This document shows, one piece after another, positions 32,155-57,856 of a stretch of DNA of 60,695 bases (position 1 is its first letter; every line of letters begins with the position of its first letter). The position numbers and the translations under genes were made by a program. The notes under the pieces were generated by a model. The model saw only the letters and a list, made by a program, of their open reading frames with translations. It was not told the origin of the DNA and did not search any database. Source of the DNA: Candidatus Zixiibacteriota bacterium (GTDB lineage: Bacteria > Zixibacteria > MSB-5A5 > UBA10806 > 4484-95); the NCBI GenBank assembly GCA_021159005.1, contig JAGGSN010000052.1, forward strand, positions 1 through 60,695, in the 5' to 3' direction.

Positions 32155-32160
32155 TTTTTC

Positions 32161-32892: not shown

Positions 32893-32898
32893 CGCGGA

Positions 32899-35050: not shown

Positions 35051-35066
35051 TATACCATTCGACTCG

Positions 35067-35417: not shown

Positions 35418-35750
35418 GTCAGTTCGCTTACCATCCTGTCCAAACCAGCAGTTTGACGAACCCTGCTTAGCCTTTAAAGTAAAACTATATAACTACATAT
35501 CTTTTCAACAATGAAAAAGCAAGTACATTTTTTTAGGTGTGGCGCTTTCCCACAATCCGTTTCCACTACATAGACATTGACTTATGGACAAAACTGCCTT
35601 TTCTGTTTTCTGCGGTTGGCAAAAGCTGTGGAGGAATCCACCAGTACGCACTCCCAAGCGCCGCGTACAATTTGAACCCGATCGACGCCCGGTATAATTT
35701 GGCTAAGGGTTTCAGGGAGTTACGGCGATAAATGCCAATCGGCCATCGAT

Positions 35751-35766
35751 TGGCCCAGATATTGCT
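35751..35766 (+). promoter_or_regulatory. Sigma-54 promoter for the 607-residue GcvH-like gene
   Basis: TGGCCCAGATATTGCT has GG and GC exactly 10 bases apart and closely fits TGGCAC-N5-TTGC. The transcript would start ~60 bases before the ATG at 35834. The two NtrC-type regulators of this island are the obvious activators. Confidence 0.75.
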
Positions 35767-35833
35767 TTCAATTAAGGTGAAAATAAGAAAGACCCAAAAC
35801 GCAAAGTTTTGGATGTCAAGAAAGGAAGTAGTT

Positions 35834-37685: not shown

Positions 37686-38240
37686 TTAATTCTTCTCTAA
37701 CTCGTCTTTTAGCATAATCTTGCAGTAATAGCACAGTTGCGCGGACTTTGCGTCAATGTTCGTCGTGTCGAGCGAGGCGGCCATTACGCAAGTGGGGTCA
37801 TCACAGTGGGTAAGGCCAAAAGTATGGCCTAACTCATGAATGCCTTCCTTGAGAACGCGGCTGACAAAGACGCGACGATTGAGGGGGAAATCGTCTCCGG
37901 GACCGGGTGGCGGGCTGAGAAGTCGGTACGTCGATATCAATGCCGCCCGCCCGTTAAGCATCGCCTCGCCGAATACGTAACGCAAGATCGGTGTGAAGAC
38001 GTCTAAGGTTGTAACTCCCAGAAGCCGGAAGGAAGTCTGATCGGAAGTAGCCAAGTGCTTGAGAATCCGGGTGGCATGATATTGCCCTCTATTTTCGTCT
38101 AAAAGTTCCACCGGCAGTTTCTCGGGGGCACCAACCCGGCACCGGAATGGGAATATTCGTGTGATTTCCGCGGCTAAGCCAGACATGAGTTCCTTGTCCG
38201 TGATATTCAGGGGTACAATTTTAATAAGGCGGGGAGTCAT
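37686..38240 (-). CDS. Archaemetzincin-like zinc metalloprotease
   Basis: A 184-residue member of the archaemetzincin (AmzA) family. The catalytic zinc motif is HELGHTFGLTHC with the Glu base. The family's second zinc site is formed by that Cys together with CDDPTC and CYYC near the C-terminus. Archaemetzincins are aminopeptidase-like metzincins, common in archaea and sporadic in bacteria. The start at 38240 (MTPRLIKIVPL) is chosen because it follows the regulator's stop after 25 bases. It closes a kinase-regulator-protease cassette that is repeated at 47.3-50.5 kb. Confidence 0.88.
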   Translation of the reverse strand: MTPRLIKIVPLNITDKELMSGLAAEITRIFPFRCRVGAPEKLPVELLDENRGQYHATRILKHLATSDQTSFRLLGVTTLDVFTPILRYVFGEAMLNGRAALISTYRLLSPPPGPGDDFPLNRRVFVSRVLKEGIHELGHTFGLTHCDDPTCVMAASLDTTNIDAKSAQLCYYCKIMLKDELEKN

Positions 38241-38265
38241 AACCGTTGACTCCCGCTTGCTGCTC

Positions 38266-39603
38266 TCAGGACAGCCCATATTTTTTGATTTTGGCGTATA
38301 ATGTTCCCCTATCAATCTTCAGCGCCTGAGCTGTCTGGCTTATGTTCCACTCGTACTGCTTGAGCTTTCTGACAATGTAGTCTCTCTCTTGGGAATCGAG
38401 AGACTCATCGATCGGCTCTCCGCTAGGTTCCTGCAGCATGAGGGGTAGGTCCTCCGGCATAATCCATTTTTGTTTGCCTACTACAAGCGCTCGCTCGATG
38501 GCATTTTTTAACTCGCGGACATTGCCGGGCCAGTCATAGGTGACCAGATAGTGCATAGCTTCAGGGGAAATCAAACTGGTCTTTTTGTTCAAATGCACGC
38601 GCAAAACCTCCATGAAATGTTTAGCCAGAATCGGAATGTCATCCCTACGTTCCCGCAAAGGCGGTATACAAATCTGCACGACATTTAATCGGTAATAGAG
38701 ATCCTGTCGGAAGTTTCCCTCTTTTATGGCATCCTCCAGGTCACGGTTGGTGGCTGCGAGTACCCTGAAATCCACATCCTCATCCCTAAGTCCACCGACT
38801 CTCCGGAATTTTCGCTCCTGAAGCACCCTGAGCAGATCGATCTGCATCTTTGGGCTTGCGTTTCCTATCTCATCTAAAAAGAATGTTCCTCCGGAGGCGA
38901 TCTCCAACAGACCTCTTTTGGACGTAGTGGCTCCTGTGAAGGCTCCCTTTTCATACCCAAACAGCTCGCTCTCCAAGAGGGATTCTGTGAAAGCACCAAA
39001 ATTGATGCCCACGAACAGCCCTTTTGACCTGGGACTCTTTTCGTGGATTGTGCGTGCCAGTACCTCCTTGCCGGTTCCACTCTCACCCGATATTAGCACT
39101 ACCGAGTCTGTGGAGGCCACGTCCTCGACGAGTTCGAACAACTTCAGCATGGCTGACGACTGGCCGATAATCGGTCCGTAACTGCCGCATACTCTTATCT
39201 GATGCTTGAGTAGTTTATGCTCGCGCCGCATGAGTTCGTTCCTAAAAATTTGCTTGACGAGTGTCCCTATCTTCAGCGGGTCGAACGGCTTGACCACGTA
39301 GTCAATGGCGCCGAGCTTCATTGCTTGGACAGCAGAATCGACAGAGCCATAGGCGGTCATCATAACCACGGTAGTGTCGGGATCGTTTTCCTTTACTCGC
39401 TTCAGCATCTCCAGACCGTCTATACCGGGCATCTTGACGTCCACCATCAGCAAATCGAACGACTGCGCCTTCAATATCTCCAACGCCGACTCGCCGCTCT
39501 CGGCTGCCTCCACCCGGTATCCATCGCGCCTTAGCAAATCTCCCAGCGAGATACGGATGGAAAGCTCGTCGTCCACAACAAGTATTCTGAATTTTTTCTG
39601 CAT
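38266..39603 (-). CDS. NtrC-family response regulator
   Basis: A 445-residue sigma-54 activator. Receiver domain (about 6-120): VVDDE, MVDVKMPG (phosphoacceptor Asp) and the conserved Lys in VVKPFDP. AAA+ domain (about 145-380): SGESGTGKEVLA Walker A and an intact GAFTGA loop. C-terminal Fis-type HTH ending RGTLYAKIKKYGL. The partner kinase lies immediately upstream in transcription order (39648-41570). Likely targets are the sigma-54 promoters at 35751 and 47074. It is paralogous to the regulator at 47885-49246. Confidence 0.94.
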   Translation of the reverse strand: MQKKFRILVVDDELSIRISLGDLLRRDGYRVEAAESGESALEILKAQSFDLLMVDVKMPGIDGLEMLKRVKENDPDTTVVMMTAYGSVDSAVQAMKLGAIDYVVKPFDPLKIGTLVKQIFRNELMRREHKLLKHQIRVCGSYGPIIGQSSAMLKLFELVEDVASTDSVVLISGESGTGKEVLARTIHEKSPRSKGLFVGINFGAFTESLLESELFGYEKGAFTGATTSKRGLLEIASGGTFFLDEIGNASPKMQIDLLRVLQERKFRRVGGLRDEDVDFRVLAATNRDLEDAIKEGNFRQDLYYRLNVVQICIPPLRERRDDIPILAKHFMEVLRVHLNKKTSLISPEAMHYLVTYDWPGNVRELKNAIERALVVGKQKWIMPEDLPLMLQEPSGEPIDESLDSQERDYIVRKLKQYEWNISQTAQALKIDRGTLYAKIKKYGLS

Positions 39604-39647
39604 CGCTACCTCTTTAGTCAGCTATCCGGGGTTTAACGGCAAGGCCA

Positions 39648-41570
39648 TCATCCTGACTTAATGGGCAGGCTAATGGTAAAGACGGTACCCTCGCCCTCTT
39701 TACTATCTACCTTTAAGATTCCGCCATGCTTGCTTACTATAGCATAGCTTACACTCAGACCGAGACCAGTTCCCTTTCCAACAGATTTGGTCGTAAAGAA
39801 CGGTTCGAATATCATTTCAAGATGGTCTTCCTTAATACCGCAGCCCGTATCCTCAATTGAGATCAGCACCTTTCCATTTTTCTCCGAGGTAGAAATTGAC
39901 AGTATGCCACCCTCGGGCATGGCTTCGCAGGCGTTAAGAGAAAGATTGACAAATACCTGCTGCAATTGATTGGCATCTCCATTTACTTTGGACAGACCCT
40001 CGGCGAATTTCTCCTTGATGGTTATATCCTTGAACTCTTTCTGGTTGCGCAGAAGTTTTAACCATTGCTGAATCATCTCGTTTACATCTAAGGGCTTCAT
40101 CTCCAAGGAGGACTCACGGGCAAAATTCAGCAATCCCATGACGATTTCACGCATTCGGGAGGTCTCGTTGTACATGATTTCGAGATATTCCTTTCCCTTA
40201 TCGCTGAGACCTTTCTCGCTCTTCAGCAGGTGTTCGAAGGTCAGTAATCCGGTCAGCGGGTTGTTGATCTCATGGGCGATACCCGCCGCCATTCGGCCTA
40301 TTGATGCCATTTTCTTGCTCTCCCCAATCTGTCGACGAGTTATCTGCTCAAGAGTCTCCTCTCTTTGTGCCACGGCGTCGGCCATTTGATCAATCGCCAA
40401 GCAGAGCATGCCCATTTCGCCGGGAGGCCGTATATTTACCCTGGCCGATAGGTCGCCTACCACAATCTTGCCGGACATCTTAATGATCCGCCCGATGGGA
40501 CGTAGGATGGTTCTGGTCGCAAGTGCCAGCAGTACTAAGCTGATTATGGTCATGAAAATTATCACGCCAAGAAAGATCCGCGCCGCGAGTCTCCGGTTGT
40601 GGAGGAACGCCTCTTCTCTTACGCCGACACCCAAAATTCCAATGACCTTATCTTCGGGGTTACGAATCGGCGCATAGGCGGTGATGTACCAGTCATCGAC
40701 CACAAAGGCTCGGTCGGCCCATGCTTTCTGCATTTTCAGCACCTTTTCATAAACTACAGTGCTCACCCGCGTACCAACGGCCCGCGAGCCATCCTTCCCC
40801 GTTAAGCTGGTGGAAACACGGATATTTCCTTGGAAAATCGTAGCGGCTCCGATATCCATACCTTGGTAGCTCTCATCCTGGTACAGATCCTCTTTGATTT
40901 CATCGACAATCTCGCAACTCTGGTTCAGGAGTTTTGCTCCATACAGGAATCCTACAATTTTCCCCTCTTTTTGCAGGTCCACTATGGGAACCGCCGCTCC
41001 GATGACCATTCCATCGCGGTGTATACTCTTTTCTCCGGACTGGTCGGCCTTGGCAAGCTTTATCTCAGGAGACGCCCTACGCAGCATATCGGCAGATTTT
41101 CTTTCCAACTCCTCATACGTTACGATCGCCGTGCCCCGGATACATTTTTTCTCCCTCAGAGCCCGGGCCACTATCGGGTTATGGGAAATATTGTCCCCCA
41201 TCTGTCCCGGATTATGTTCGCGGTAGATAACCTTGCCATTCGTATCCAACAGGGAGAGCATGTCTAACTCTCCCACTTGCCAGATGCTCCGCAGGAGTCT
41301 GTGCAAATCTTCCCTATCCCAGCTTTCAAGCGGAACGGGGACACTTCGGCGCATTGAGGTTGCCCGAAGCAGGAGACAAATATCGTCTGTGTGTTCTTTA
41401 AATATCTTGCAGGCGGAGTTGAGGTCCATGCACACTCGAGTTTGCACTTCCTCAATGATGATCCCACTGACGCTGAACATGGTAATCAGAAACAGCACGA
41501 CATTGCTCACCAGGATGATCGCAATGAAGCCTATGCTCAGTCGGAACCATATTGTCCTTTTCCAATTCAC
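39648..41570 (-). CDS. Membrane sensor histidine kinase
   Basis: A 640-residue kinase. Order: transmembrane helix (about 10-35), a large extracytoplasmic Cache-like sensor (~36-330; contains a [13 protein letters not shown]...[26 protein letters not shown] closing pattern), a second transmembrane helix (~340-365), HAMP, a HisKA domain with the H-box [10 protein letters not shown], and a HATPase domain ([30 protein letters not shown]). It should phosphorylate the NtrC-type regulator encoded next. The sensor type usually binds small organic ligands in the periplasm. The 390 bp region upstream (41571-41960) holds only a dispersed repeat, so no promoter could be assigned with confidence. Confidence 0.93.
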
Positions 41571-41960: not shown

Positions 41961-43832
41961 TCATTTTACCATAACCGCATCCTTGTTGCATACATCTCGA
42001 CAGATGCCGCACTTGATGCACAGATCAGTATTTATCTTGTGGATCTTTTTCTTTTCGCCCTCAATGGCGTTCTGCGGGCAATTTCTTGCACACAGCATAC
42101 AACCGGTGCACTTCTCAGGGTCGATGTAATAGGTGATAAGGTCCTTGCATAACCCGGCCGGACACTTCTTATCCCGGACGTGGGCTTCGTACTCATCTCG
42201 GAAGTATCTAAGTGTGCTCAGTACAGGATTGGGCGCTGATCCACCCAAGGCACAGAGCGAACAGCTTGCAACCATATTACAGGTTTGTTCCAGCAGCTCA
42301 AGGACTCCCTCTTGGGCCTGGCCGCTGCAGATATCATTAAGCATTTTGTTGATTTGCATCAGTCCCTCTCGGCACGGCAGGCATTTGCCGCATGACTCGC
42401 CAACGAGGAATTCGATAAAGTATCGAGCAATGTCCACCATGCAGTCGTCCTCGTCCATTACTATCATGCCGCCTGAGCCCATCATTGAGCCTACTCTGGT
42501 AAGTTGGTCGAAATCAACCGGCAGATCGAGCAGGTTTTCCGGAATCACTCCGCCCGAAGGCCCGCCGGTCTGCACCGCCTTGAACTTTTTGCCGTTGGGA
42601 ATCCCGCCGCCGATGTCGAAGATAATCTCCCGCAGGGTTATCCCCATGGCTACTTCTACCAACCCGGTGTTCTGGACCTTGCCCACCAGGGAGAAAACTT
42701 TGGTGCCTTTGCTGCCGCCCCAGGGATTGTCGGCAACGTCGCCGGTGCCGATGGAGGTAAACCACTTGGCGCCGCGCAGAATAATCAAAGGCACGTTGGC
42801 ATAGGTCTCTACATTGTTAAGGCTGGTGGGTCGGTCCCACAGGCCGTGTTCTACGGTGTGAATGTACTTAGCGCGCGGCTCGCCAACTCTACCTTCCATG
42901 GAAGCCATCAAGGCCGTGGACTCGCCGCACACGAAGGCGCCGGCTCCACAATGGATGGTGACATCGAAATCGAAGCCCCGGTCGAAGATATTCTTGCCCA
43001 GAAGGCCGTACTCGCGCGCGTCGGCGATAGCTCTTTCCAGACGCTTGAGGGCAAGGGGGTACTCATGGCGGATGTAGATATATCCATTGCTGGATCCGAT
43101 GGCATAGGCGGCAATGATCATGCCCTCCAGCACAGAGTGAGGATCCCCCTCGATGATACTGCGGTCCATATATGCGCCAGGATCGCCTTCGTCCGCGTTG
43201 CAGACGACGTATTTAGGTTCTCCGGGTGTCTCACGGCATGTTTTCCACTTGATACCGGTAGGGAAGCCCCCGCCTCCGCGCCCGCGAAGTCCAGAAGCAA
43301 TCATCTCCCGGACAACCTCCTCGGGTTTCATTTCGGCAAGCGCCTTGGCCAAGGCTTTGTAACCACCCCTGGCGATATACTCCTCAATCACCTCCGGGTC
43401 AATTAGGCCGCGGTTGCGAAGTGCGAGAAGGCGCTGCTTTTTAAAGAAACCGATATCGCTCATCTTAGGTACGACAGACTCTTCGGCTGGCGGCGTGTAC
43501 ATTAGCTCCTTAACCGGCCGGCCCTTGAGCATGTGCTCTTCGACAAGGTGAGGAATGTCTTTCTCTTTGAGACGCTGATAGAAGATTTCGTCCGGCTTGA
43601 CTACCATGACTGGCCCCTGGGCACAGAAGCCATTGCATCCGGTCATGACCACGGTCACCTCGTCGGTGAGATTGTGCTTGGCCAGCTCACGCTCCAGGGC
43701 GTCCTTGATCTTGTAAGAACCGCTTGAGACGCAGCCGGTTCCGGCGCAGAGCATAAGATGCATGCGGTAACCGTCCGACTCCTTGTCAACAGATGACTTT
43801 CCCTCTACGTTATTGATTGGCATTGTACTCAT
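41961..43832 (-). CDS. HndC/HydB-type NADH-binding flavin subunit
   Basis: A 623-residue subunit like HydB/HndC of electron-bifurcating NADH/ferredoxin enzymes. It starts with a thioredoxin-like [2Fe-2S] domain (LCAGTGCVSSG...TGCNGFC) and continues with a NuoF core: GRGGGGFPTGIKWK for NADH/FMN, HCGAGAFVCGESTAL, and the [4Fe-4S] site GESCGKCLPCREG. Two C-terminal ferredoxin motifs follow (CTGCMLCARNC and CIKCGICRDVC). It oxidises or reduces NAD(H) through FMN. It overlaps the HndB-like gene by four bases and ends the operon that starts at 47025. Confidence 0.95.
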   Translation of the reverse strand: MSTMPINNVEGKSSVDKESDGYRMHLMLCAGTGCVSSGSYKIKDALERELAKHNLTDEVTVVMTGCNGFCAQGPVMVVKPDEIFYQRLKEKDIPHLVEEHMLKGRPVKELMYTPPAEESVVPKMSDIGFFKKQRLLALRNRGLIDPEVIEEYIARGGYKALAKALAEMKPEEVVREMIASGLRGRGGGGFPTGIKWKTCRETPGEPKYVVCNADEGDPGAYMDRSIIEGDPHSVLEGMIIAAYAIGSSNGYIYIRHEYPLALKRLERAIADAREYGLLGKNIFDRGFDFDVTIHCGAGAFVCGESTALMASMEGRVGEPRAKYIHTVEHGLWDRPTSLNNVETYANVPLIILRGAKWFTSIGTGDVADNPWGGSKGTKVFSLVGKVQNTGLVEVAMGITLREIIFDIGGGIPNGKKFKAVQTGGPSGGVIPENLLDLPVDFDQLTRVGSMMGSGGMIVMDEDDCMVDIARYFIEFLVGESCGKCLPCREGLMQINKMLNDICSGQAQEGVLELLEQTCNMVASCSLCALGGSAPNPVLSTLRYFRDEYEAHVRDKKCPAGLCKDLITYYIDPEKCTGCMLCARNCPQNAIEGEKKKIHKINTDLCIKCGICRDVCNKDAVMVK

Positions 43833-44212
43833 AATGTCTGCTCGCTTCCTATTGCCAGGGCATAATCTTTGACGACGTTTCCCTTCATAACATGCTCGTC
43901 GAAAATTTTAGCTACCTTCTTTTTATCAAGCTCCACGTATTTTACAGGGGCTTGCTCGACTACCTCGACAGTCATCATTGGCTCGCGACTGCAGAAACCC
44001 GCACAGCCAGAGGTGGTGACGATGATGTCGCTGGCATCTACCTCCTCCACGCAGCGCATGACCTCGGCCATTATTTTCCGTGCGCCGGCCGCGATCCCGC
44101 AGGTGCCCATGTGCACCGTGATCTTGACCCGCCCTGCCCCATCTCTCAGGGACATAGTTTTCTTTTTTTGCTCCATGATCTTGTCGAGATCTTCAATTTT
44201 CAATTTGGCCAT
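43829..44212 (-). CDS. HndB-like thioredoxin-fold [2Fe-2S] protein
   Basis: A 127-residue stand-alone [2Fe-2S] ferredoxin of the thioredoxin fold: HMGTCGIAAGARKI and TSGCAGFCSREP provide the four cysteines. It corresponds to HndB of NADP-reducing hydrogenase operons. It lies between the NuoE-like and NuoF-like genes, the usual place, and its stop overlaps the NuoF-like start (ATGA). Ends in a helix likely to contact the flavin subunit. Confidence 0.9.
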   Translation of the reverse strand: MAKLKIEDLDKIMEQKKKTMSLRDGAGRVKITVHMGTCGIAAGARKIMAEVMRCVEEVDASDIIVTTSGCAGFCSREPMMTVEVVEQAPVKYVELDKKKVAKIFDEHVMKGNVVKDYALAIGSEQTL

Positions 44213-44236: not shown

Positions 44237-44722
44237 TCATGCTTGCTCAGCTTTTCGTTTCTTATTCAGGATTCTATTCACTTTTACCGAAGAGGTGTTG
44301 CCATATACTTCTCCGTCAATGGTCACCACTGGAGCCAATCCGCAGCATCCCACGCAGCGCACGGACTCGAGACTGAAGAGAAGATCCTCTGTTGTTCCTC
44401 CCTCCTCCACGCCAAGATCCCGCTTTATGTTCTCGAGAATCCGGGTTCCTCCCTTGACATGACAGGCCGTGCCGGTGCACACGCAGATGGTGTGCTTGCC
44501 CCTGGGCTTGAGTGTGAAGCCTTTGTAGAACGTGGCGATGTGGAAGATGCGGTTCAGGGGTACATCCAGCTCTTCGGCGAGCGTTCTGGCAATATGCATT
44601 GGGATGTGGCGGTAGCGCTCCTGAACATCCTGGAGTATCTCAATCAGATTGCTTTTATCACGTTTCCATCGGGTCAATATGTTGTCAAGTATGTTATCCG
44701 GTTTGGCTATCTGCGTTTCCAT
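44237..44722 (-). CDS. HndA/NuoE-type [2Fe-2S] subunit
   Basis: A 161-residue NuoE/HndA homologue: an N-terminal helical bundle (SNLIEILQDVQERYRHIPM) and a thioredoxin-like domain binding [2Fe-2S] through VCTGTACHVKGG and RCVGCCGLAP. It relays electrons to or from the flavin subunit. The gene order NuoG-like arm, GcvH-like, NuoE, HndB, NuoF is a hydrogenase-type diaphorase operon with an extra gene between the iron-sulfur arm and NuoE. Confidence 0.94.
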   Translation of the reverse strand: METQIAKPDNILDNILTRWKRDKSNLIEILQDVQERYRHIPMHIARTLAEELDVPLNRIFHIATFYKGFTLKPRGKHTICVCTGTACHVKGGTRILENIKRDLGVEEGGTTEDLLFSLESVRCVGCCGLAPVVTIDGEVYGNTSSVKVNRILNKKRKAEQA

Positions 44723-44756: not shown

Positions 44757-45698
44757 TCATGCTACCTTCTTCAGCTTTGCCAGCAGGAACTCGCCTACCA
44801 TTTCATCAATAAGATTTTCCCGCCAAGGCGCATTCTTCTCTAATTCATGGATGTTCTTCTGTCTAACGTCCCCGCCATTTATTTTCTCCTTGATCCGTCC
44901 AATCTCCTGCTCTATCCACTTTCTTGCTCTTTCCCCGTACAGGAGGTTCACCAGCCCTGACGGTAGATCGAGGGGTTTTATCATGAACAGCCACCCGCTG
45001 ACGTATGGCGACTGGTTCAACAGCCCCGGCTGTTCCAGCAGCCTTTCGTTTGTTGCGATAACCTGTCCTGATACCGGTGCCAGGAAGCTAATCCGCCCAG
45101 TATCAAGGCGGATATCACAGACTGGCGTACCCTCGAAAACGGTCTCGCCAGGACTCGGCAGCCGCACACCCCGGACGGAGCCTATTAGCCACTGCCCAAA
45201 GTCGTCCAGGCCCACGCGAACATCGCCGTCGCGTTCTACGCGAACCCAGGCATGGTTTCTGTGATAGTGCATCCCTTGGGGAAAACGGAAACCTTCAATC
45301 AAGTGCGAATCATCGGCGGGAAGACTCCAGTCTGGTTCGGCCGAGTCCTCCATCATCTGCTGAAAAGAGCAATTAGCGCAGTTGAACCCGTTGAGACACA
45401 ACTTGTAGGAAATTTCCCCTGTCAACATGTAGCGGCATTTGCGTGCCGAGGCGGGCAGTTTCTTGAAAAACTCTTCGAACTCGGCGCGTCGCTTCTCGAC
45501 CTCCTCCCAATTTGGGGATGGGGAAGCATGCGGTTGAACCAGCACCGGCCCGTCGACCAGTGCCTGATGCAGGGAACAGCGCTCGCACTCGTAATTAAGC
45601 GTGCAGAGCCTGTATGAGATAACGCCCGCGTCAACCCACACACACTGTCTGGCCGAGGTGGGCGTCAATTCCGTTTTATTCGCTTGTTTCCCAGACAT
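44757..45698 (-). CDS. Double-Cys4 GcvH-like protein lacking the lipoyl lysine
   Basis: A 313-residue protein with two C-x12-C-x5-C-x2-C modules (Cys 19-32-38-41 and 88-101-107-110), each carrying a GxISY[RK]LC signature, joined by a charged helix. A GcvH-like domain follows (about 143-245): YHRNHAWVRVE, VGLDDFGQWLIG, LPSPGETVFEG, LAPVSGQV and VSGWLFMIKP. The lipoyl-lysine position is Thr200 (RLDTGRISFLAP). A helical tail closes the protein. The Cys4 modules could bind zinc or an iron-sulfur cluster. Sitting between the iron-sulfur arm and the NuoE-like subunit, it probably belongs to their complex. It is not a glycine-cleavage protein: no GcvP or GcvT is present, and the modification site is lost. 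Confidence 0.8.
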   Translation of the reverse strand: MSGKQANKTELTPTSARQCVWVDAGVISYRLCTLNYECERCSLHQALVDGPVLVQPHASPSPNWEEVEKRRAEFEEFFKKLPASARKCRYMLTGEISYKLCLNGFNCANCSFQQMMEDSAEPDWSLPADDSHLIEGFRFPQGMHYHRNHAWVRVERDGDVRVGLDDFGQWLIGSVRGVRLPSPGETVFEGTPVCDIRLDTGRISFLAPVSGQVIATNERLLEQPGLLNQSPYVSGWLFMIKPLDLPSGLVNLLYGERARKWIEQEIGRIKEKINGGDVRQKNIHELEKNAPWRENLIDEMVGEFLLAKLKKVA

Positions 45699-45717: not shown

Positions 45718-47025
45718 CTAGCTCGATTTGGCTCCCGAAAAAAACATATCGGTGAGCCGGTTCCAGCTCTCCTTATCGAGAGTTCTGGAAAAGTTTTGCA
45801 GCAACTCGCCGCCGTCGGACAATGCAGCGCTTTCGCACTCAGTCAAGACGCTGAACAGGGAGTCCGACTCGTCTTGAGTCCACTGGCTGGCTTTGTCCGG
45901 ACCGATGAGACTACTCGCATCCTTGTAAGAATTCGCCGGCTCCATCGTATAGAGCCAACCCCGGTCGTAGCAGTCCTCATTGATAAGTGAGGGATTATCC
46001 TCTAAGGCGGGATTGATGTGGATTATCCTGCCCGATATAGGGAAGAGCATGGTGGCACGGTGCCCATTGCTGGATGCATTCAGGGCTGGGTCTCCGCGGT
46101 GTACCAAATCGCCCGGCATAGCTCTGAGCGCTATCTTGGTAATGCCTCCAATGATTTTCTGGGCGAAATCGTCCAGTCCCACGCGTGCGTGTTCTTTCGA
46201 GATCTTTGCCCAAGTGTGGCCTTGGTAATAATTGCGGTCTTCTATCAGAGTGAAATGGCTAACTTGCTTGGGCCGCTGGCGCAGACCGGGCGCCAAAGCT
46301 AAGACCGGATGCGTCCCCAACTCGTCGAATAGACGTTGATCCACCTCGCAGGTGGCGCAATCGAAATTGTTGGGGCATACCTTGTAGGAAATCAATCCCA
46401 TGCGAGAGTACCGGCAGAGCCGCTGGCTTTCCCCAAGCTCCTTCTTCCACCGCTCCTTTGTCACCGTCTCCATCTGCATGGCTCCCGTCGGGCACACATA
46501 AGTACAGGCGCCGCAGCCGATGCAGGCTTCAGGATGTATATAGAAGGGCGTTCCGACCACCCGAGTGCCGCCGCGGCCCTCGAAGCCGATAGCGGATGCG
46601 CCTACAATCTCGTCGCATACGCGGACACACAATCCGCACAGCACGCAGCTGCTCGGCTCGTCGATGGTTTTGAAACGTGACTTGGTAACGCCCAGCGAGG
46701 CCGCTATCTCCTGTACCTTCTTCACCTCAGGACACCTGGCCAGGAGAAGCTCGGCCATCAGCGCACGGTTACGGAGCACTTCATCGGTGTTAGTGCGAAT
46801 CTCAAGACCTTCACTAGCGGGGAAATTGCAAGAGGTCACTAACTTGGTACGCTTGCCGCGTTTCACCTCCACGATGCACATGCGGCAAACGCCATAGGGC
46901 TCCAACCCGTCCATTTGACACAAGGTAGGAACATCGATACCCATATCCCGTATGGGCTTCAGGATTGGCTCCCGATCCTCTGCTTTTACTTCATGTCCGT
47001 TGATTTTTATGGTTACCAGTGGCAT
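45718..47025 (-). CDS. HndD/NuoG-type iron-sulfur arm fused to a GcvH-like domain
   Basis: A 435-residue chimera. Residues 1-80 are a plant-type [2Fe-2S] domain (Cys 36, 47, 50, 66). The next ~40 residues replace the usual His-Cys3 cluster with LLARCPEVKKVQEIAASLG. Two [4Fe-4S] motifs follow (CVLCGLCVRVC, 127-137; CIGCGACTYVC, 168-178). Next comes a Cys4 module (204-217-223-226, GLISYKVC) and a GcvH-like domain (about 262-365: YQGHTWAKI, VGLDDFAQKIIGG, FPISGRI, YDRGWLYTMEP). The lipoyl-lysine position is Gly321. In HndD/HydA the same N-terminal arm leads into the H-cluster domain, which is wholly absent. First gene of a sigma-54-driven operon with diaphorase subunits. Confidence 0.88.
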   Translation of the reverse strand: MPLVTIKINGHEVKAEDREPILKPIRDMGIDVPTLCQMDGLEPYGVCRMCIVEVKRGKRTKLVTSCNFPASEGLEIRTNTDEVLRNRALMAELLLARCPEVKKVQEIAASLGVTKSRFKTIDEPSSCVLCGLCVRVCDEIVGASAIGFEGRGGTRVVGTPFYIHPEACIGCGACTYVCPTGAMQMETVTKERWKKELGESQRLCRYSRMGLISYKVCPNNFDCATCEVDQRLFDELGTHPVLALAPGLRQRPKQVSHFTLIEDRNYYQGHTWAKISKEHARVGLDDFAQKIIGGITKIALRAMPGDLVHRGDPALNASSNGHRATMLFPISGRIIHINPALEDNPSLINEDCYDRGWLYTMEPANSYKDASSLIGPDKASQWTQDESDSLFSVLTECESAALSDGGELLQNFSRTLDKESWNRLTDMFFSGAKSS

Positions 47026-47073: not shown

Positions 47074-47090
47074 AAGCAATTTACGTGCCA
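47074..47090 (-). promoter_or_regulatory. Sigma-54 promoter for the diaphorase/GcvH-like operon
   Basis: On the minus strand TGGCACGTAAATTGCTT is an essentially perfect -24/-12 element, ending ~50 bases before the ATG at 47025. The rest of the 300 bp gap 47026-47325 has no supported gene; activator sites should lie within it. Confidence 0.82.
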
Positions 47091-47325: not shown

Positions 47326-47871
47326 TCAAGGATAAAGATTTGAGCGACATTCAGAACAAAGCCTAGTTGATTTCAAATCGGTCTGAGCCAGGCTATTGGA
47401 GGGGTACATTACACAGTTGCGGTCCAAGCAGTGAGTAAGACCCAGCATATGCCCCGCCTCGTGGATGGCCTCTTTCTCCACTCGTGACAGGAGTATCATC
47501 GTGTCGTTTGGGCGCCCATAAAATTCCTCGCTTAACCGGAAGGTGGAAATTACTGCGCTGCGTCCACAAAGCCTGGCCTGCCCGAAGATGAAGGTCAACA
47601 CAGGAATAGTAATATCGACATTAGTGATACCGAGAATCCACTGGTCGGGTCGCGGAAACCTGCTTTCCAACCATTCCAGTATTTTCAGGGAGTTGTATTG
47701 ATCACGTGTGTCATCCAGGGCGAAATCGGGACGCGGCTCGGGGGAGAGAATATCGCAGTTTAGCTCGAAGCAGGACCGGACTGCAGAACAAGCTCTCTCC
47801 TCCGCATCGTCAGGAGTATTTCCAAGTGAAACGATGCAGAGCTTGACCGGAGGTTCGCACATCGGCATCAT
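47326..47871 (-). CDS. Archaemetzincin-like zinc metalloprotease, second copy
   Basis: A 181-residue archaemetzincin homologue with the full motif HEAGHMLGLTHC. Further zinc-site cysteines follow in CLDRNC and CSEC, and the strand ILGITNVDITIPVLTFIFGQA matches the copy at 37686-38240. The N-terminal half (VKLCIVSLGNTP...) also follows the family. It again sits directly behind an NtrC-type regulator (13 bases), so the kinase-regulator-protease order occurs twice. The substrate peptide or protein is unknown. Confidence 0.88.
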   Translation of the reverse strand: MMPMCEPPVKLCIVSLGNTPDDAEERACSAVRSCFELNCDILSPEPRPDFALDDTRDQYNSLKILEWLESRFPRPDQWILGITNVDITIPVLTFIFGQARLCGRSAVISTFRLSEEFYGRPNDTMILLSRVEKEAIHEAGHMLGLTHCLDRNCVMYPSNSLAQTDLKSTRLCSECRSNLYP

Positions 47872-47884
47872 TGGCTAGGCTCTG

Positions 47885-49246
47885 TCAGTGTCGGCGCTTG
47901 GGCTTGGATAGGTTGTAATTTTTGATCTTGTTGTACAGCGTGGCTCTGTCGATTTTAAGCAAGCGGGCGGAGCGGGTAACATTCCAGCCAGTCATATCCA
48001 GCACTCTCAGTATGTGCTTTTTCTCCGCCTCCCTCAGGCTCATCTCTGCTTTCTCTTCGGGGAGGAACTCCTGACCGCCGCCGAAAGGCATATCCCGCAG
48101 TTGAACCAACGGCTCTTTGCCCACTACTATAGCCCTCTCAATGGCATTCTTCAGCTCGCGAATGTTGCCGGGCCATTTGTATCTCGAGAATATCTCGATC
48201 ACCTTTGGGGAGAATCCTTCCTTCTTTTTGTTCATCTTCATGCAAAACTTCTTCAGGAAGTATTCGGCCAGAAGGAGAACGTCATCTCCTCTTTCCCTCA
48301 GCGGAGGCAGGTGAATTCCGACGACGTTAAGACGGAAGTAGAGGTCTTCGCGGAAGGTGCCCTCCTCAATGTTTTTCTTCAGATTCTTGTTCGTAGCGGC
48401 GATCACCCTCACGTCTGTGTGTATCTTGCGATTGCCGCCCAGCCGGTAGCAAGCCTTTTCCTCCAGCACCCGCAACAGGTCAACCTGCACCTTGGGGCTC
48501 ATGTCGCCTACCTCGTCCAGAAACAGTGTGCCGCCGTCGGTGAGTTCGAACCTTCCCATACGTGCATGGTCTGCTCCAGTGAAGGCACCTTTATCATGTC
48601 CGAACAGCTCGCTCTCCACCATAGTATCGGGCAATGCGCCGATGGAGACTCCTATGAAAGGTTTATAGCGGCGCTCGCTGTTGCGATGGATGGCTTGGGC
48701 GATCAACTCCTTGCCGGTTCCACTCTCGCCGGTAACAAGTACCGTCGCATCGCTAGCGGCCACTGAGCCGACCATCTCCAGTACCTTCTGTATGGGCTTG
48801 CTGTTACCGATGATCTCGTCGAACTCGTAGATGGCATCAATCTTCTCGCGCAACATGATGTTTTCATCTGCAAGATTCTGCTTCTCGACGATCTTCTGCA
48901 GTTTCAAGGCCAGCATGTCGGGATCAATCGGTTTGATCAGGTAGTCGTAGGCGCCGACCCTCATCGCCTCAACCGCTGTCTCAACCGTGGCATATGCTGT
49001 AAAGATGATAACCGGAATGTCCGGTTTCGCTTTCAGTACCTTGTGGAGTACTTCGATTCCGTCAATGCGGGGCATTTTTAGATCCACGAGCAGAATACTC
49101 CACTCCTCGCGATCCAGGAGATCCAGCGCCTCCTTACCGCCTTCTACCGGTACGACTTCGTAGCCAAATTTCTTAAGCCACACCGAGAGAGATTCGCGGA
49201 CAATCTTCTCGTCGTCCACCACCATGATCCGCACTGCTGATTTCAT
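47885..49246 (-). CDS. NtrC-family response regulator, second copy
   Basis: A 453-residue sigma-54 activator with a receiver domain (VVDDEKIVRESL; LVDLKMPRIDG; LIKPIDPD), an AAA+ domain (TGESGTGKELIAQ, intact GAFTGA loop) and a Fis-type HTH (DRATLYNKIKNYNL). It overlaps its partner kinase gene by four bases. It is a paralogue of the regulator at 38266-39603 and is oriented towards the sigma-54 promoter at 47074, which lies just beyond the following protease gene, so that operon is its most likely target. Confidence 0.94.
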   Translation of the reverse strand: MKSAVRIMVVDDEKIVRESLSVWLKKFGYEVVPVEGGKEALDLLDREEWSILLVDLKMPRIDGIEVLHKVLKAKPDIPVIIFTAYATVETAVEAMRVGAYDYLIKPIDPDMLALKLQKIVEKQNLADENIMLREKIDAIYEFDEIIGNSKPIQKVLEMVGSVAASDATVLVTGESGTGKELIAQAIHRNSERRYKPFIGVSIGALPDTMVESELFGHDKGAFTGADHARMGRFELTDGGTLFLDEVGDMSPKVQVDLLRVLEEKACYRLGGNRKIHTDVRVIAATNKNLKKNIEEGTFREDLYFRLNVVGIHLPPLRERGDDVLLLAEYFLKKFCMKMNKKKEGFSPKVIEIFSRYKWPGNIRELKNAIERAIVVGKEPLVQLRDMPFGGGQEFLPEEKAEMSLREAEKKHILRVLDMTGWNVTRSARLLKIDRATLYNKIKNYNLSKPKRRH

Positions 49247-50478
49247 TGGACACCCCCGCTATTGTCCTCCTTTTTCTGTTTATTCTCATGCCCCAGAAAG
49301 ATACTGAATGTAGTACCCTTTTCTTTGGAACTCATTACGCGGATGTCGCCCCCGTGGCGTTTGATGATTCCGTATGACACGGCCAGGCCAAGTCCGACCC
49401 CTTTCCCCTTTTCCTTGGTCGTGAAGAATGGGGTGAACAGTTTGCCGATGTTATTCTCGGCTATCCCGCAGCCCGTATCCTCTATGTCTATCCGCACTGG
49501 CATGGGGTCTTTGGCCAGCCTCTCCTTGTCGTCAACCTGCGCGGCGTGGATGGTCAGCCGGCCTCCCTGGGGCATGGACTGGATTGCGTTGAGAATAAGA
49601 TTGAAAAAGACCTGCTTCAACTGGTCCATGTCCGCCTGGATCTGAGGAAGTTCTGGGTCAATATGCTTGATCACTTTGATGTCCTGCAGATTTGCCTTGT
49701 GACCTAATATGCTGAAGGTCTCGTCTAAAATGTTGCCGAGATTCACAGGTGCAAGCATCGGATAGGATTGGCGGGAGAAATCCAGCAGGCTCTTGATGAT
49801 TCTGGAACATCGGGTGAGCTCATGTTTGGAGTCGGTGAGAAATTTCAAAGCCTGCTTTCTGTCGAACTGGTCGTTTTCGAGATCCTTTGCAAGCGTGTGC
49901 AGATAAACCATGATGCCGCTGATGGGGTTATTAATCTCATGGGCTACGCCGGCCGCGATCTGGCCGAGGGAGACCATCTTCTCGCTCTGGATCAGCTGCT
50001 CCTGCAGCTGCTTAAGCTCGTTATAGGCCTGTTGCAGCTCCTTGCGCTTGTGCCGTTCTGCCTCAGCCATCGCCGCCTCGGCAATCAGTTTCTTCGTCGG
50101 CCTGAGATCGCGGGCTACCAGCACGATTCCGGACACATCACCGGAATCGTTTTTCAAAGAGGAACTCCTCAGCGAGATGGGTATCGGTTTCCCTTCCTTG
50201 GGCAACATGAAGCCCTCGATATTGGCCATGACCTCATTGAGTAGGTTTTTGTCTATCATGTCTTTCGGGGGCAACTCGGTCTTTTTGTCCTGCGAGGTAC
50301 TCAGGATCTTTTGAACCGGGTAATCGAGGATCTCCTCCTCGCTGTAGTGCAGTAAGGATAGGGTTGCCTGATTTACCTTAGTGACTATCCCATCCGGGTT
50401 GACCAGAATCACCGCATCAGCCATAACGCTGATCATCTGGGCACAGATATTGTCTAGTAACTCTTTTTCATCGAACAA
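49243..50478 (-). CDS. PAS-domain cytoplasmic histidine kinase
   Basis: A 411-residue soluble kinase with no transmembrane helix. An N-terminal PAS domain (about 10-140, AVILVNPDGIVTKVNQATLSLLHYSEEEILDYP) leads into a coiled linker (KRKELQQAYNELKQLQEQL), then HisKA with the H-box GVAHEINNP and HATPase (NAIQSMPQGGRL, DTGCGIAENN, GKGVGLGLAVSYGI). A cytoplasmic PAS suggests an internal signal such as redox state, in contrast to the membrane kinase of the first cassette. It pairs with the regulator at 47885. Confidence 0.92.
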   Translation of the reverse strand: MFDEKELLDNICAQMISVMADAVILVNPDGIVTKVNQATLSLLHYSEEEILDYPVQKILSTSQDKKTELPPKDMIDKNLLNEVMANIEGFMLPKEGKPIPISLRSSSLKNDSGDVSGIVLVARDLRPTKKLIAEAAMAEAERHKRKELQQAYNELKQLQEQLIQSEKMVSLGQIAAGVAHEINNPISGIMVYLHTLAKDLENDQFDRKQALKFLTDSKHELTRCSRIIKSLLDFSRQSYPMLAPVNLGNILDETFSILGHKANLQDIKVIKHIDPELPQIQADMDQLKQVFFNLILNAIQSMPQGGRLTIHAAQVDDKERLAKDPMPVRIDIEDTGCGIAENNIGKLFTPFFTTKEKGKGVGLGLAVSYGIIKRHGGDIRVMSSKEKGTTFSIFLGHENKQKKEDNSGGVQ

Positions 50479-50619: not shown

Positions 50620-51600
50620 TTAGGGTTTTTCTTCTACTTCACAGAAAGCCTTCATAAGGAAACTAGAGATATCGTCAATCTCTAACTCCTTATTGGATGC
50701 CTCCTTAAGGGTAGCCATGCAGATCGGACACATGGTGGCTACGCCTTGCCCGTTGGCATTCTTTAACTGCCGCACTCTCTTCTCGCCGATTTTATGGGAT
50801 ATTTTGGGGAAGAGCGATTCTATGGGGCCTCCACAGCAATGGGTCAGCTTCCCGTTGTCCTCCGGCTCTTTTACCGTGTAACCTGCCCGCCTTAGCAGCT
50901 GTCTTGGCTCCTCAATTACGTCTTCATAACGTGCATACACGCAGGAGTCGTGGACCGTGATTTCCTTTTCGATGCTGTGGAGCGGCTGAAGACCGTTGCT
51001 GGCAGCCAGAACCTCCAAGTAGCTTTTGACCTCAATGTCGTAGCCATCGATAACGGTTGGGTACACAGAGCGCAACATATTTGTGGTATGGGGATCAATG
51101 GTGATCACGGAGCGGACACCGTTCTCCTTCAGCAGGTTATAGACTCGCTGGGCTTGCATACGAAAAGTGTCGTCCGCGCCCAAGTCGTATGCGAGAGTGC
51201 CGGCGTAAAGCTCTTTCTTGTACAGGTAGCCGAACTCCACTCCCGCCTGCTTCAACAATATGGCAATGTTGCGGATGATCTGCCTGTAGCTCTTCACATT
51301 AGCCCTTGAAGGTATGGAGATGAATGCTGACACATTGAACATCCTGTTGAAAAACCTGCCCACACCAACGAACTTGCCGAGAAAAGAATCCTCTATGAGC
51401 CCCATATTCCTCACCGCGGCAATCATGTAGGGCAACAGTTGATACATCGAACCGGTATAAATTATTTTCTCGCCGCCTTCGGGTATGTCAAGATTCTTGG
51501 CCCACTCGATAGACCTCTTTTGAGAAATGGGAAATACAGTTTTCCTCTTTTTGAGGTTGTCCATCATGAGTCCGATTACGTTGCCGGTGGGAAGAGGCAT
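50620..51600 (-). CDS. HdrB-like heterodisulfide-reductase subunit (CCG domain)
   Basis: A 326-residue protein of the HdrB/HdrD/GlpC type. The C-terminal half has one complete CCG motif set (VHDSCVYARY, THCCGGPIESLFP, MCPICMATL) able to hold a noncubane [4Fe-4S] cluster. In the N-terminal half the matching positions read YTGSMYQLLPY and YAGTLAYDLG, so the first CCG motif has lost its cysteines. Canonical HdrB has two such clusters, so this version probably has one active site. Ribosome site AAGGAG. It follows hdrC after 15 bases. No methanogen cofactor genes are present, so the disulfide-type substrate is unknown. Confidence 0.85.
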   Translation of the reverse strand: MPLPTGNVIGLMMDNLKKRKTVFPISQKRSIEWAKNLDIPEGGEKIIYTGSMYQLLPYMIAAVRNMGLIEDSFLGKFVGVGRFFNRMFNVSAFISIPSRANVKSYRQIIRNIAILLKQAGVEFGYLYKKELYAGTLAYDLGADDTFRMQAQRVYNLLKENGVRSVITIDPHTTNMLRSVYPTVIDGYDIEVKSYLEVLAASNGLQPLHSIEKEITVHDSCVYARYEDVIEEPRQLLRRAGYTVKEPEDNGKLTHCCGGPIESLFPKISHKIGEKRVRQLKNANGQGVATMCPICMATLKEASNKELEIDDISSFLMKAFCEVEEKP

Positions 51601-51615
51601 AAGGTTTCTCCTTCG

Positions 51616-51927
51616 CTAAAGCTTGAATATCTCTTTACTGATATAGCTGCGTAAGAATCTCACGTTCTCTGCGATATGCACGTCGGCCGTGCAGTTCGCC
51701 TCGCATGTCTTACACAGCAAGCACTGGTATATGGTGTTCGTGTTCTCAAGCACCTTGTCCTCCAGGCCCAACAGGGCATATCTGAAGAGCTTGCGGGGAA
51801 GCAACTCGATCTCCATGGGACACACAGCGCTGCAGACCCCACAATTCATGCAAGCTGTGGCATTAAACTCCACTGACGAAGTTACCTTTTTTACAAAATC
51901 CGGATTTACCTTCGCTATTTCTGTCAT
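51616..51927 (-). CDS. HdrC-like iron-sulfur subunit
   Basis: A 103-residue HdrC homologue with two [4Fe-4S] motifs, CMNCGVCSAVCP and CLLCKTCEANC, joined by the typical SVEFNATAC and LGLEDKVLENTNTIYQC segments. It passes electrons from HdrA to HdrB. I use the ATG at 51927, because a start further upstream would overlap the preceding small gene. It lies directly before hdrB, as in methanogen and sulfate-reducer operons. Confidence 0.9.
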   Translation of the reverse strand: MTEIAKVNPDFVKKVTSSVEFNATACMNCGVCSAVCPMEIELLPRKLFRYALLGLEDKVLENTNTIYQCLLCKTCEANCTADVHIAENVRFLRSYISKEIFKL

Positions 51928-51931
51928 CCCT

Positions 51932-52174
51932 CTACCTACTCTCCACCAGAATATACTGGTAGTAGTCATCTTCGTTCGGTTCCTGGCTTTCCTCGATGTA
52001 GCCGTACTTCCTGGCGGCCATGACCCAGTACATCACCTCGTGCACGGGAAAACCCATGGCTTCTGCGATTTCCGGAACGGTCTTAGGCCCTTTGCTTAAA
52101 ACGGCCAACACCTTGTCCCGCATGAGCATCTCTTCTCTTATCACTTCTCGGAGATCTCGTACTTTGTCATTCAT
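51932..52174 (-). CDS. Small winged-helix-like protein in the hdr operon
   Basis: An 80-residue protein with a helix-turn-helix look: LMRDKVLAVLSKGPKTVPEIAEAMGFPVHEVMYWVMAAR, then a wing-like tail ending DDYYQYILVESR. Small proteins of this type occur in some hdr operons, but their role is not established; a DNA-binding or complex-assembly part is possible. It is tightly coupled: it overlaps hdrA by eight bases and precedes hdrC by four. Confidence 0.65.
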   Translation of the reverse strand: MNDKVRDLREVIREEMLMRDKVLAVLSKGPKTVPEIAEAMGFPVHEVMYWVMAARKYGYIEESQEPNEDDYYQYILVESR

Positions 52175-53885
52175 AGCTGGCCTCCATAGCGTCGATCATC
52201 GCCCGTACCTGTTGATCCGTGTAACCCTTGATATACAGGGCGCCTTTGGGGCAGACAGGCACGCAACATCCACACCCCTTGCACAGCGCTGTGTTGATCT
52301 CGGCAACCTCTTTCTCTCCAAAGCTGACCTTCTCGATTGCGGAGTACGGGCAGGCTTCGGTACATTTGTCGCACCAGATGCAAGCGTCTTTGTTTACCAT
52401 GGCGATCAATGGTTCCAACTCCACGTAACCCTTTTTAAGCAGGGAGGCGCTCTTGGAGGTGGCGGCCAACGCCGAGGTAACGCTCTCAGCGGAGTTGCGG
52501 GGAGCCTGGGCTGCGCCGGCGATGAAGACCCCGTCAATGACTGTCTCCACCGGCCGCAACTTGGGATGAACCTCCTTGAAGAAGCCGTCCAGCGAAACCG
52601 GTAACTTGAGCACATCATTCAGAGCTTGGTTGGAACGAGGCTCCATGGCAACAACCAGAACTACCAAGTCACTTTCGATTTCGAGTTCTTCACCGCAGGT
52701 CAAGACATCTTTGACCTGAATTTGGAATCGCCCGTTGCTCTTTTCTACATGGGGAGGCGCTTCCTCTTCGAACTTGATGAACATCGCCCCCTTCTGGCGG
52801 GCTTCCTGATAGAGAAGCTCATACTTGCCATAAGTTCGAATGTCTCGGAAGAGATGAAACTGGTGCAGTTCTGATGATAAATCGCTCGAGACTAAGGACG
52901 CATGAATAGCAGCATTACAACAGTATCTTGAACAATATTCGTGCGCTTTTTCTCCGGATTGATCTCGGCTACCCACACAGTAAATATAGGTCACATCTTT
53001 CACGGGCTTGCCTTGATAGACTAATTCACCCTTGCAACTGTCAATTAGCTCCTTGTACTCGGGCAGCGTCAACACACCACTGGTGCCATACGCATACTCG
53101 CCCTCGGCTGGTTGATACAGGGTAAAGCCCGTAGTCACGATTATCGAGCCCACGTTTAGGGAAATCTGTTCGTTCTTAACCTTGATTTTCACGTCAAAAT
53201 CACCCACGCTTCCAGATTTCTTTACCAGTTCAGCCTCGGTAAATATTTTGATATTTTTTCTGTTATTGATTTCCTCGCTTAGTTCCGCGACCAGTTCGTT
53301 TCCACGCCGATCGTGGGGGTACATCCTGTTAAATCCGCCAATCCAACCGCCAATGCGATCAGTCTTTTCGATCACGAAGGCACTGATACCCAAGTCGGAA
53401 AGCGCTAGAGCCGCGCGCAACCCGGAAATACCTGCCCCAACCACCAGCGTTTTAGAAACCGTATCAATCCTGGTCTTCTCCAGAGGCTGGGTTAAACGCG
53501 CTTTGGCGATGCCAGCCTTGACCATATAAATCGCCTTCTCGGTGGCCTGTTCGGGGAGATTTGTGTGAGCCCAGGAGCACTGCTCCCGCAGATTGACCTG
53601 AATGTACAGATAAGAATTTAGTTTCGCCCGCTCTGCCACACCACGGAAGGTAAACAGGTGAAGTGTCGGTGAGCACGAGGCTACCACCAGACCATCTAAC
53701 TTATATTCATTGATATCATCTATCATTTCCTGCTGGGCTGCATCAGAGCAAGCAAACATGGTCGTCTTTGCTACTGTTACACCCTCTTCATTTTCTATTG
53801 CATCCCGAACTTTCTCAACTTCCACGTAATCAGAGATGTTGCCGCCGCAGTAGCAGATATAAACGCCTATTCTTCTCTCGCTCAT
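52167..53885 (-). CDS. HdrA-like flavoprotein
   Basis: A 572-residue HdrA homologue. The N-terminal HdrA domain starts GVYICYCGGNISDYV and has VVASCSPTLHLFTF. FAD is bound at LVVGAGISGLRAALALS. A middle cysteine block (YIYCVGSRD...EYCSRYCC) is typical of HdrA. Two C-terminal ferredoxin motifs are CIWCDKCTEACP and CKGCGCCVPVCP. HdrA carries the flavin that bifurcates electrons in Hdr complexes. It overlaps the HdrA-GltD fusion gene by four bases. Its presence next to a second HdrA-like protein suggests a two-HdrA complex. Confidence 0.93.
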   Translation of the reverse strand: MSERRIGVYICYCGGNISDYVEVEKVRDAIENEEGVTVAKTTMFACSDAAQQEMIDDINEYKLDGLVVASCSPTLHLFTFRGVAERAKLNSYLYIQVNLREQCSWAHTNLPEQATEKAIYMVKAGIAKARLTQPLEKTRIDTVSKTLVVGAGISGLRAALALSDLGISAFVIEKTDRIGGWIGGFNRMYPHDRRGNELVAELSEEINNRKNIKIFTEAELVKKSGSVGDFDVKIKVKNEQISLNVGSIIVTTGFTLYQPAEGEYAYGTSGVLTLPEYKELIDSCKGELVYQGKPVKDVTYIYCVGSRDQSGEKAHEYCSRYCCNAAIHASLVSSDLSSELHQFHLFRDIRTYGKYELLYQEARQKGAMFIKFEEEAPPHVEKSNGRFQIQVKDVLTCGEELEIESDLVVLVVAMEPRSNQALNDVLKLPVSLDGFFKEVHPKLRPVETVIDGVFIAGAAQAPRNSAESVTSALAATSKSASLLKKGYVELEPLIAMVNKDACIWCDKCTEACPYSAIEKVSFGEKEVAEINTALCKGCGCCVPVCPKGALYIKGYTDQQVRAMIDAMEASYE

Positions 53886-56596: not shown

Positions 56597-57038
56597 TTCG
56601 GTTTGCTCCCTGTACTGGTTCAAGCTTCTTGAGAGTTTCCAAGAAGTTGTTCATGTGTTTTACAAAAGGTTCAGCACACACAGAGCAGATCGCTGCCATC
56701 TTGACACGATCCGCCTTGATATTGTGCTCTTTCAACATTTTTTGCCCATCACCTACGATCTTTGCGGTCCTGTCTGTGCAGTCAGGGACGAACGGGCAGT
56801 CGGTCCCGTCGGCTGCGACAAACACCCCATCAAAGCCATGCTGGAGTGCGTACAGGATCCACTCCGGCTTGATGCTGCTGGAGCAGGGAAGCGGAATGGC
56901 AATGCAGGATGGCGGGTAGTGCATGTGCGAACTGCCCGCCATGTCGATCCCTATGTCGGAGATGAACACCGTCGAGAAAATGAGAATTCTCGGCTGCAAC
57001 TGCTCCCTGGCAGCACCGCCGCCTTTCTCCATGGTCAT
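56586..57038 (-). CDS. MvhD-like electron-transfer protein, cysteine-depleted
   Basis: A 150-residue protein of the MvhD/FrhD family, the [2Fe-2S] subunit that links HdrA to hydrogenase or other electron donors. The core follows MvhD: ISDIGIDMAGSSHMHYPP, PEWILYALQHGFDGVFVA and GTDCPFVPDCTDRTAK. The family's N-terminal CxxC motif is replaced by STVFISDIG. Cysteines remain later (IPLPC, DCPFVPDC and AICSVC), so cluster binding, if any, must be altered. Its start overlaps the tusA stop codon (ATGA), and the HdrA-GltD start follows within its 3' end. Confidence 0.82.
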   Translation of the reverse strand: MTMEKGGGAAREQLQPRILIFSTVFISDIGIDMAGSSHMHYPPSCIAIPLPCSSSIKPEWILYALQHGFDGVFVAADGTDCPFVPDCTDRTAKIVGDGQKMLKEHNIKADRVKMAAICSVCAEPFVKHMNNFLETLKKLEPVQGANRNGL

Positions 57039-57292: not shown

Positions 57293-57397
57293 TATATTTC
57301 CTCCATTTATTTTATTTTCTTTGCCGCTGATTAAAAAAACTGCGGTTGTGATTGCTGCTGCGGCCGGACGGCCACAATCTCACTCGGAATCGTTGGT

Positions 57398-57760: not shown

Positions 57761-57856
57761 CACTACTCTCCTTATTGATTTATTAACAAACTAGTAACTA
57801 CCTATCTTTTATCCAATGCAATCACACTGGCCTTTTTGTCACAACAACAATCGACC

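Follow-up and report, generated by a model that had tools for sequence, protein, structure and literature searches.

The window, that is, the whole 60,695-nt stretch of DNA analysed here, comes from an assembly of Candidatus Zixiibacteriota that is 97.3% complete and 1.6% contaminated. It contains an operon whose first gene encodes an iron-sulfur arm fused to a Cys4 motif and a domain resembling the glycine cleavage H-protein (GcvH). The features of the locus are listed below, with their evidence in parentheses.

31609-35417 (-): HydS-like block encoding DRTGG, HATPase, a divergent [FeFe]-hydrogenase-like protein (33234-34607), DRTGG, PHP, and HATPase (domains, orthologs)
35732-37657 (+): third Cys4-GcvH-like protein, with a sigma-54-like site inside the longest ORF (ORF call)
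37686-41570 (-): second control cassette, encoding an archaemetzincin, a sigma-54 response regulator, and an sCache histidine kinase (ORFs, domains)
41961-43832 (-): NuoF/HndC-like subunit (BfuB) with an FMN/NADH site, an extra N-terminal 2Fe-2S, a C-terminal 2x[4Fe-4S], and the B2 motif (Pfam, motif, solved relatives)
43829-44212 (-): small HndB-like [2Fe-2S] thioredoxin-fold protein (domain searches)
44237-44722 (-): NuoE/HndA-like subunit (BfuC), thioredoxin-like [2Fe-2S] (PF01257, 162.6 bits)
44757-45698 (-): second Cys4(x2)-GcvH-like protein, 313 aa (ORF call, Pfam)
45718-47025 (-): arm-Cys4-GcvH fusion (BfuA-like), 435 aa, ATG start, first gene of the operon (ORF call, Pfam, cysteine mapping, orthologs)
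45871-46233 (-): GcvH-like domain of the fusion, residues 265-385, without the lipoyl lysine (Pfam, Foldseek, alignment)
46276-46434 (-): Cys4 motif and linker of the fusion, residues 198-250 with C204, C217, C223, and C226 (in no family library)
46456-47025 (-): iron-sulfur arm of the fusion, residues 1-190, with one [2Fe-2S] and two [4Fe-4S] and without His-Cys3 (Pfam, alignments, arm tree)
47075-47090 (-): sigma-54 promoter TGGCACGTAAATTGCT, without mismatch, beginning 65 bp upstream of the fusion start codon (motif scan, orthologs)
47326-50478 (-): archaemetzincin, sigma-54 response regulator, and PAS histidine kinase, likely control genes (ORFs, domains)
50620-57763 (-): Hdr block encoding HdrB, HdrC, a small wHTH-like ORF, HdrA, an HdrA-GltD fusion, an MvhD-like protein, and a DsrE-like protein (ORFs, domains, orthologs)

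A Pfam search of the 435-aa fusion identified Fer2_4 at residues 4-80, Fer4/Fer4_7 at 126-183, and GCV_H at 265-385 (74.6 bits; cut-off, 22.2), with no Fe_hyd_lg_C or H-cluster domain; Pfam and further domain searches found no known catalytic domain. The cluster cysteines were mapped to residues 36/47/50/66, 127/130/133/137, and 168/171/174/178, and the Cys4 motif, C204-x12-C217-x5-C223-x2-C226, lies between the arm and the GcvH domain. The Pfam and NCBIfam models gave no convincing match to this motif even at E values up to 10, and we therefore rejected its assignment to a known zinc or Fe-S family. In alignments with solved HydA proteins, the His-Cys3 site falls in a stretch that is missing from the fusion. 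The AlphaFold2 model of the arm, built from a shallow alignment of ten sequences, was of low confidence (pLDDT below 50 at residues 29-194), and the arm is therefore assigned from its sequence. An earlier note on this DNA had described a protein that keeps the [2Fe-2S] and two [4Fe-4S] motifs, lacks the H-cluster motifs and His-Cys3, and carries a Cys4-GcvH-like domain behind the arm; the Pfam results, cysteine mapping, and HydA alignments, together with the H-protein fold described below, confirmed this architecture.

The GcvH part was predicted to fold as an H-protein, with a pLDDT of about 77-93 over residues 261-390. Foldseek matched it to 1onl (E value, 2e-11; TM score, 0.89), and all 22 matches at an E value of 0.001 or below were H-protein or GcvH-like chains, including two entries of H-protein in complex with lipoyl synthase. 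An alignment revealed that the lipoyl lysine is absent from the fusion and from every aligned paralog, which makes a classical lipoyl-carrier role unlikely for the GcvH part. A carrier resembling LbpA of sulfur oxidisers (PMC6067878) was rejected for the same reason.

The operon runs from the fusion through the second Cys4-GcvH protein, NuoE, and the HndB-like protein to NuoF, the genes being approximately 20 to 35 bp apart except at one overlap of 4 bp. In NuoF, the 51K FMN, NADH_4Fe-4S, and Fer4 domains scored well over the Pfam cut-offs, and SLBB scored 24.3 bits, slightly below its cut-off of 27. The Bfu family is recognised by BfuB domains together with Fe-S clusters at both the N and the C terminus and the B2 motif, and the His/Cys motif of the B2 cluster is typical of BfuB and missing in non-bifurcating homologs (PMC9304861). 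The motif is present in NuoF as H551-x5-C557-x4-C562, and its spacing equals that of H525/C531/C536 in PMC9304861, a comparison that covers these three residues. The best solved relatives of NuoF were HydB/BfuB of NiFe- and FeFe-HydABC (787-789 bits). Counterparts of HndA, HndB, and HndC were thus found in one operon, in agreement with the earlier note, which had proposed a hydrogenase-free NADH/ferredoxin module of the HndABC type.

That note had named a separate complete HndD in the same genome, co-expressed with the operon, as a finding that would contradict it; a PF02906 search of the 97.3%-complete genome revealed no complete HydA/HndD. The sole match was the divergent HydS-like protein at 33234-34607 in the window, which has an N-terminal 2x[4Fe-4S], an H-domain, and a C-terminal FeS domain, as in functional group C/D sensory [FeFe]-hydrogenases, an assignment made by domains and not by a tree. 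It has cysteines at the four H-cluster ligand places (FCPS/PCPVK/CPQGC), and its motif L1 has Phe or Ser where the proton-relay cysteine would be. Four genomes, introduced below, carry the fusion; among them, HydG had no match in the three Zixibacteria and a match below the cut-off in the Myxococcota genome, and HydF had no match above the cut-off in any. Since HydG is absent from its Zixibacteria genomes, the HydS-like protein probably lacks an H-cluster. Elsewhere in the same genome (L127, G000:C138) is a [NiFe]-hydrogenase operon resembling group 3b, with Hyp maturation genes.

Full-length orthologs of the fusion were found in two other Zixibacteria metagenome-assembled genomes (MAGs; 77-78% identity) and in one Myxococcota MAG (65%) deposited as Deltaproteobacteria. 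The fusion is thus carried by 3 of 132 Zixibacteria genomes and 1 of 379 Myxococcota genomes, and it was not found in the remaining 129 and 378, respectively; all four carriers are MAGs, two of them (G058 and G082) are related, and the four represent perhaps two or three independent cases. All 16 cluster and Cys4 cysteines are invariant across the four orthologs, and the start of the five-gene operon is conserved between Zixibacteria and Myxococcota. Compared with the Zixibacteria orthologs (L064/L065), dN was about 0.12-0.14 and dS at least 1.2 in the arm, Cys4, and GcvH segments, and by sequence comparison the fusion is under purifying selection.

A tree of 50 arms, which is unrooted and contains long branches, separated the HydA arms from the group containing the fusion arm at 99/98 support. 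The fusion arm grouped with arms that lack His-Cys3, namely those of arm-HdrA proteins, those of glutamate-synthase-like (GltB-type) operons, and 9mqx_A. An arm with a very similar Cys4 and no GcvH also occurs in three Myxococcota genomes. The tree does not support a HydA with its H2-making end swapped, the history proposed in the earlier note, and we rejected this as the evolutionary origin of the fusion. On the basis of the tree and of the arm-Cys4 proteins without GcvH, it is more likely that GcvH was added to an arm-Cys4 protein than that it replaced an H-domain. In two Myxococcota loci (L120 and L121), the arm-Cys4 protein without GcvH is encoded in a 2-oxoacid:ferredoxin oxidoreductase operon with a GltD-like flavoprotein. 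The genome studied here has a second arm (225 aa; L040, G000:C131) in a NuoE / NuoF-GltD / arm / glutamate-synthase-like operon, a type that is widespread in the class.

Within the window, TGGCACGNNNNTTGCW is matched exactly at one site, the promoter TGGCACGTAAATTGCT. Upstream of the three orthologs, sigma-54 sites with 10 or 11 of 12 matches were located at -56 to -61; when random 350-bp stretches were drawn from the window, about 0.9% contained a score of at least 10, a count that includes the 12-match site itself. Sites scoring 10-11 were also found at the third GcvH gene and at several of the NrfD/GcvH operons described below. Because the sigma-54-like site of the third gene (35751-35766) lies inside its longest ORF, the real start of this gene, whose product has a long helical middle, is probably near 35834. 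No good sigma-54 site was detected by the motif scan upstream of the Hdr and HydS-like blocks, and sigma-54 control of these blocks was rejected. The trio of kinase, regulator, and archaemetzincin genes is present in two copies in the window, flanking the fusion operon; in the Myxococcota MAG, it sits with the Hdr block.

The Hdr block contains a 913-aa HdrA-GltD fusion (53882-56623, minus strand) with a second HdrA beside it, an arrangement that is rare in the class. Orthologs of HdrA-GltD were present in the three other fusion genomes (80%, 80%, and 69% identity) and hence in all four. A full-length HdrA-GltD of at least 58% identity was detected in only 7 of the 132 class genomes, including all three that carry the fusion, and simple counting, which ignores relatedness, gives about 9e-5 for this overlap. 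Some genomes of the class carry the Hdr block without the fusion. The Myxococcota MAG has the Hdr block on a different contig from the fusion operon, and the block adjoining the operon there is HydS-like rather than Hdr. Seven relatives of the class (L012, L018, L019, and L021-L024) encode a similar arm joined directly to HdrA, adjacent to NuoF; in L019, the arm-HdrA frame continues into an MvhD-like part. The co-occurrence in four of four genomes, the rarity of HdrA-GltD, and the arm-HdrA fusions suggest that Hdr is the likely leading partner of the 45718 module. The earlier note had proposed this link and had suggested looking for co-occurrence with hdr genes in other genomes; the four genomes show this co-occurrence and lend the link independent support, with the two loci unlinked in the Myxococcota MAG.

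We therefore propose, with a probability of roughly 0.5, that the operon encodes a hydrogen-free Bfu variant that exchanges electrons with Hdr and uses the Cys4-GcvH part for docking. As inferred from their conserved motifs, NuoF and NuoE would form a BfuBC core, with NADH and ferredoxin as its partners in electron exchange. Mid-potential electrons would pass to or from Hdr along the [2Fe-2S] and the two [4Fe-4S] clusters of the arm, and the Cys4 motif and non-lipoylated H-protein fold, with the second Cys4-GcvH protein, would most likely provide the docking between the arm and a separate acceptor or donor, of which the HdrABC/MvhD complex from the conserved Hdr block is the likeliest candidate. 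A sigma-54 activator would switch on transcription and so set when the complex is made. The analysis shows the domains, their conservation, the lack of a hydrogenase, the promoter motif, and the co-occurrence; for this module we infer bifurcation, docking, the Hdr partner, and the direction of electron flow from related families (PMC9304861). Taken as a whole, the earlier note stands as regards a hydrogen-free bifurcating module that is likely linked to Hdr and falls as regards a swap as its history; the sigma-54 promoter, the conserved HydS-like block, and the recurrence of Cys4-GcvH proteins in NrfD operons go beyond it.

The Cys4-GcvH tail may instead serve in signalling, with the NADH/ferredoxin module informing either the HydS-like/HATPase/PHP/DRTGG block or the histidine kinases of the redox state of the cell and not feeding Hdr. 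The HydS-like protein is present in all four fusion genomes at 83-84% identity, which is higher than that of the fusion itself, and its full-length form was absent from five other genomes tested. In the Myxococcota MAG, the HydS-like block directly follows NuoF of the fusion operon, and the two kinase/regulator/archaemetzincin cassettes around the operon in the window also fit this reading. However, the completeness of the BfuBC core, which has sites for both ferredoxin and NADH, points to genuine turnover, the kinase genes lie away from the fusion operon in the Myxococcota MAG, and the sensory roles of HydS proteins have themselves only been proposed (PMC13104023). We thus consider a signalling role unlikely.

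Cys4-GcvH proteins elsewhere accompany NrfD complexes, raising the possibility that docking involves something other than Hdr. In other Zixibacteria, membrane-anchored or Cys4-type GcvH-like proteins share operons with Fer4_11 and NrfD proteins, and these operons also hold a histidine kinase, a sigma-54 response regulator, and an archaemetzincin, the same genes as in the cassettes described above. If the role of GcvH-like parts is to attach redox modules to NrfD/Fe-S complexes in the membrane, the fusion would pass electrons from NADH to a quinone-linked complex of this kind; however, we saw no NrfD gene near the fusion operon, and the GcvH-family search of this genome gave four matches, three of them in the window, with no membrane-anchored GcvH-like protein among the matches listed. 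This reading therefore appears quite improbable. The complete module (membrane-anchored GcvH-like protein, Fer4_11, NrfD, kinase, sigma-54 regulator, and archaemetzincin) is conserved at four loci (L036, L114, L115, and L117), and we found no paper that deals with GcvH together with NrfD or archaemetzincin.

A split hydrogenase, in which the HydS-like protein gives an H-cluster domain in trans to the arm, would be consistent with its constant co-occurrence with the fusion and with the cysteines kept at the four H-cluster ligand places; however, this is very unlikely, and we rejected it in view of the absence of HydG, and of any HydF match above the cut-off, in the three fusion Zixibacteria, the substituted L1 cysteine, and the Fe-S domains that the HydS-like protein has of its own. 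The rarity of the fusion might suggest gene decay or chance, with an accidental functionless GcvH tail on the arm, but this is contradicted by the invariant cysteines, the low dN/dS in all three segments, and the operon and promoter conserved across two phyla, and has next to no likelihood.

Exchange with Hdr through a docking part thus remains our preferred reading. A tentative extension would be a sigma-54-controlled supercomplex of BfuBC and HdrABC joined by the Cys4/non-lipoylated H-protein adaptor, with the same kind of adaptor also serving NrfD membrane complexes as a general plug-in for anaerobic redox modules. With the fusion operon, the Bfu family would gain an output type that is free of hydrogen; docking of the fusion to Hdr, if it occurs, would show how two bifurcating systems join. 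The Cys4 motif with a degenerate GcvH forms a recurrent unnamed part beside several anaerobic redox complexes, and the tie of Cys4-GcvH genes to sigma-54 makes the regulon testable.

Compared with the H-protein of glycine cleavage, the GcvH part has the same fold; however, the fusion lacks the lipoyl lysine and the EAVK motif and has long C-terminal helices, and glycine cleavage genes were not found beside its gene. Like members of the Bfu (HydABC-type) family (PMC9304861), the operon has the full set of signature domains in its BfuB and BfuC cores, the B2 motif, and a BfuA arm with [2Fe-2S] and two [4Fe-4S], a cluster set like that of Type 2 (A3 and A5 missing). BfuA here terminates in Cys4-GcvH instead of a catalytic domain, and none of the third-substrate types (Types 1-4) listed in PMC9304861 appears to fit, the Hdr block being a candidate for the third-substrate part by its co-occurrence; the word "glycine" is absent from its main text. 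In comparison with the bifurcating [FeFe]-hydrogenases HndABCD and HydABC, the HndA, HndB, and HndC counterparts are encoded together, whereas the H-cluster, His-Cys3, HydG, and HydF are missing and the arm groups apart from HydA. The best solved match of the arm, PDB 9mqx_A (with 9mqx_B), likewise has no hydrogenase domain; however, it scored only 129 bits, and this 247-aa protein has no Cys4 or GcvH tail. We know of no GcvH-like part in BamGHI/BamE or FlxABCD-HdrABC. The arms and partners of these systems differ from those of the 45718 module, but in BamGHI with the HdrA-type BamE (PMC9304861) and, as far as the citation of Ramos 2015 in PMC6037941 describes it, in FlxABCD-HdrABC, an NADH module likewise works with an HdrA-type bifurcating module.
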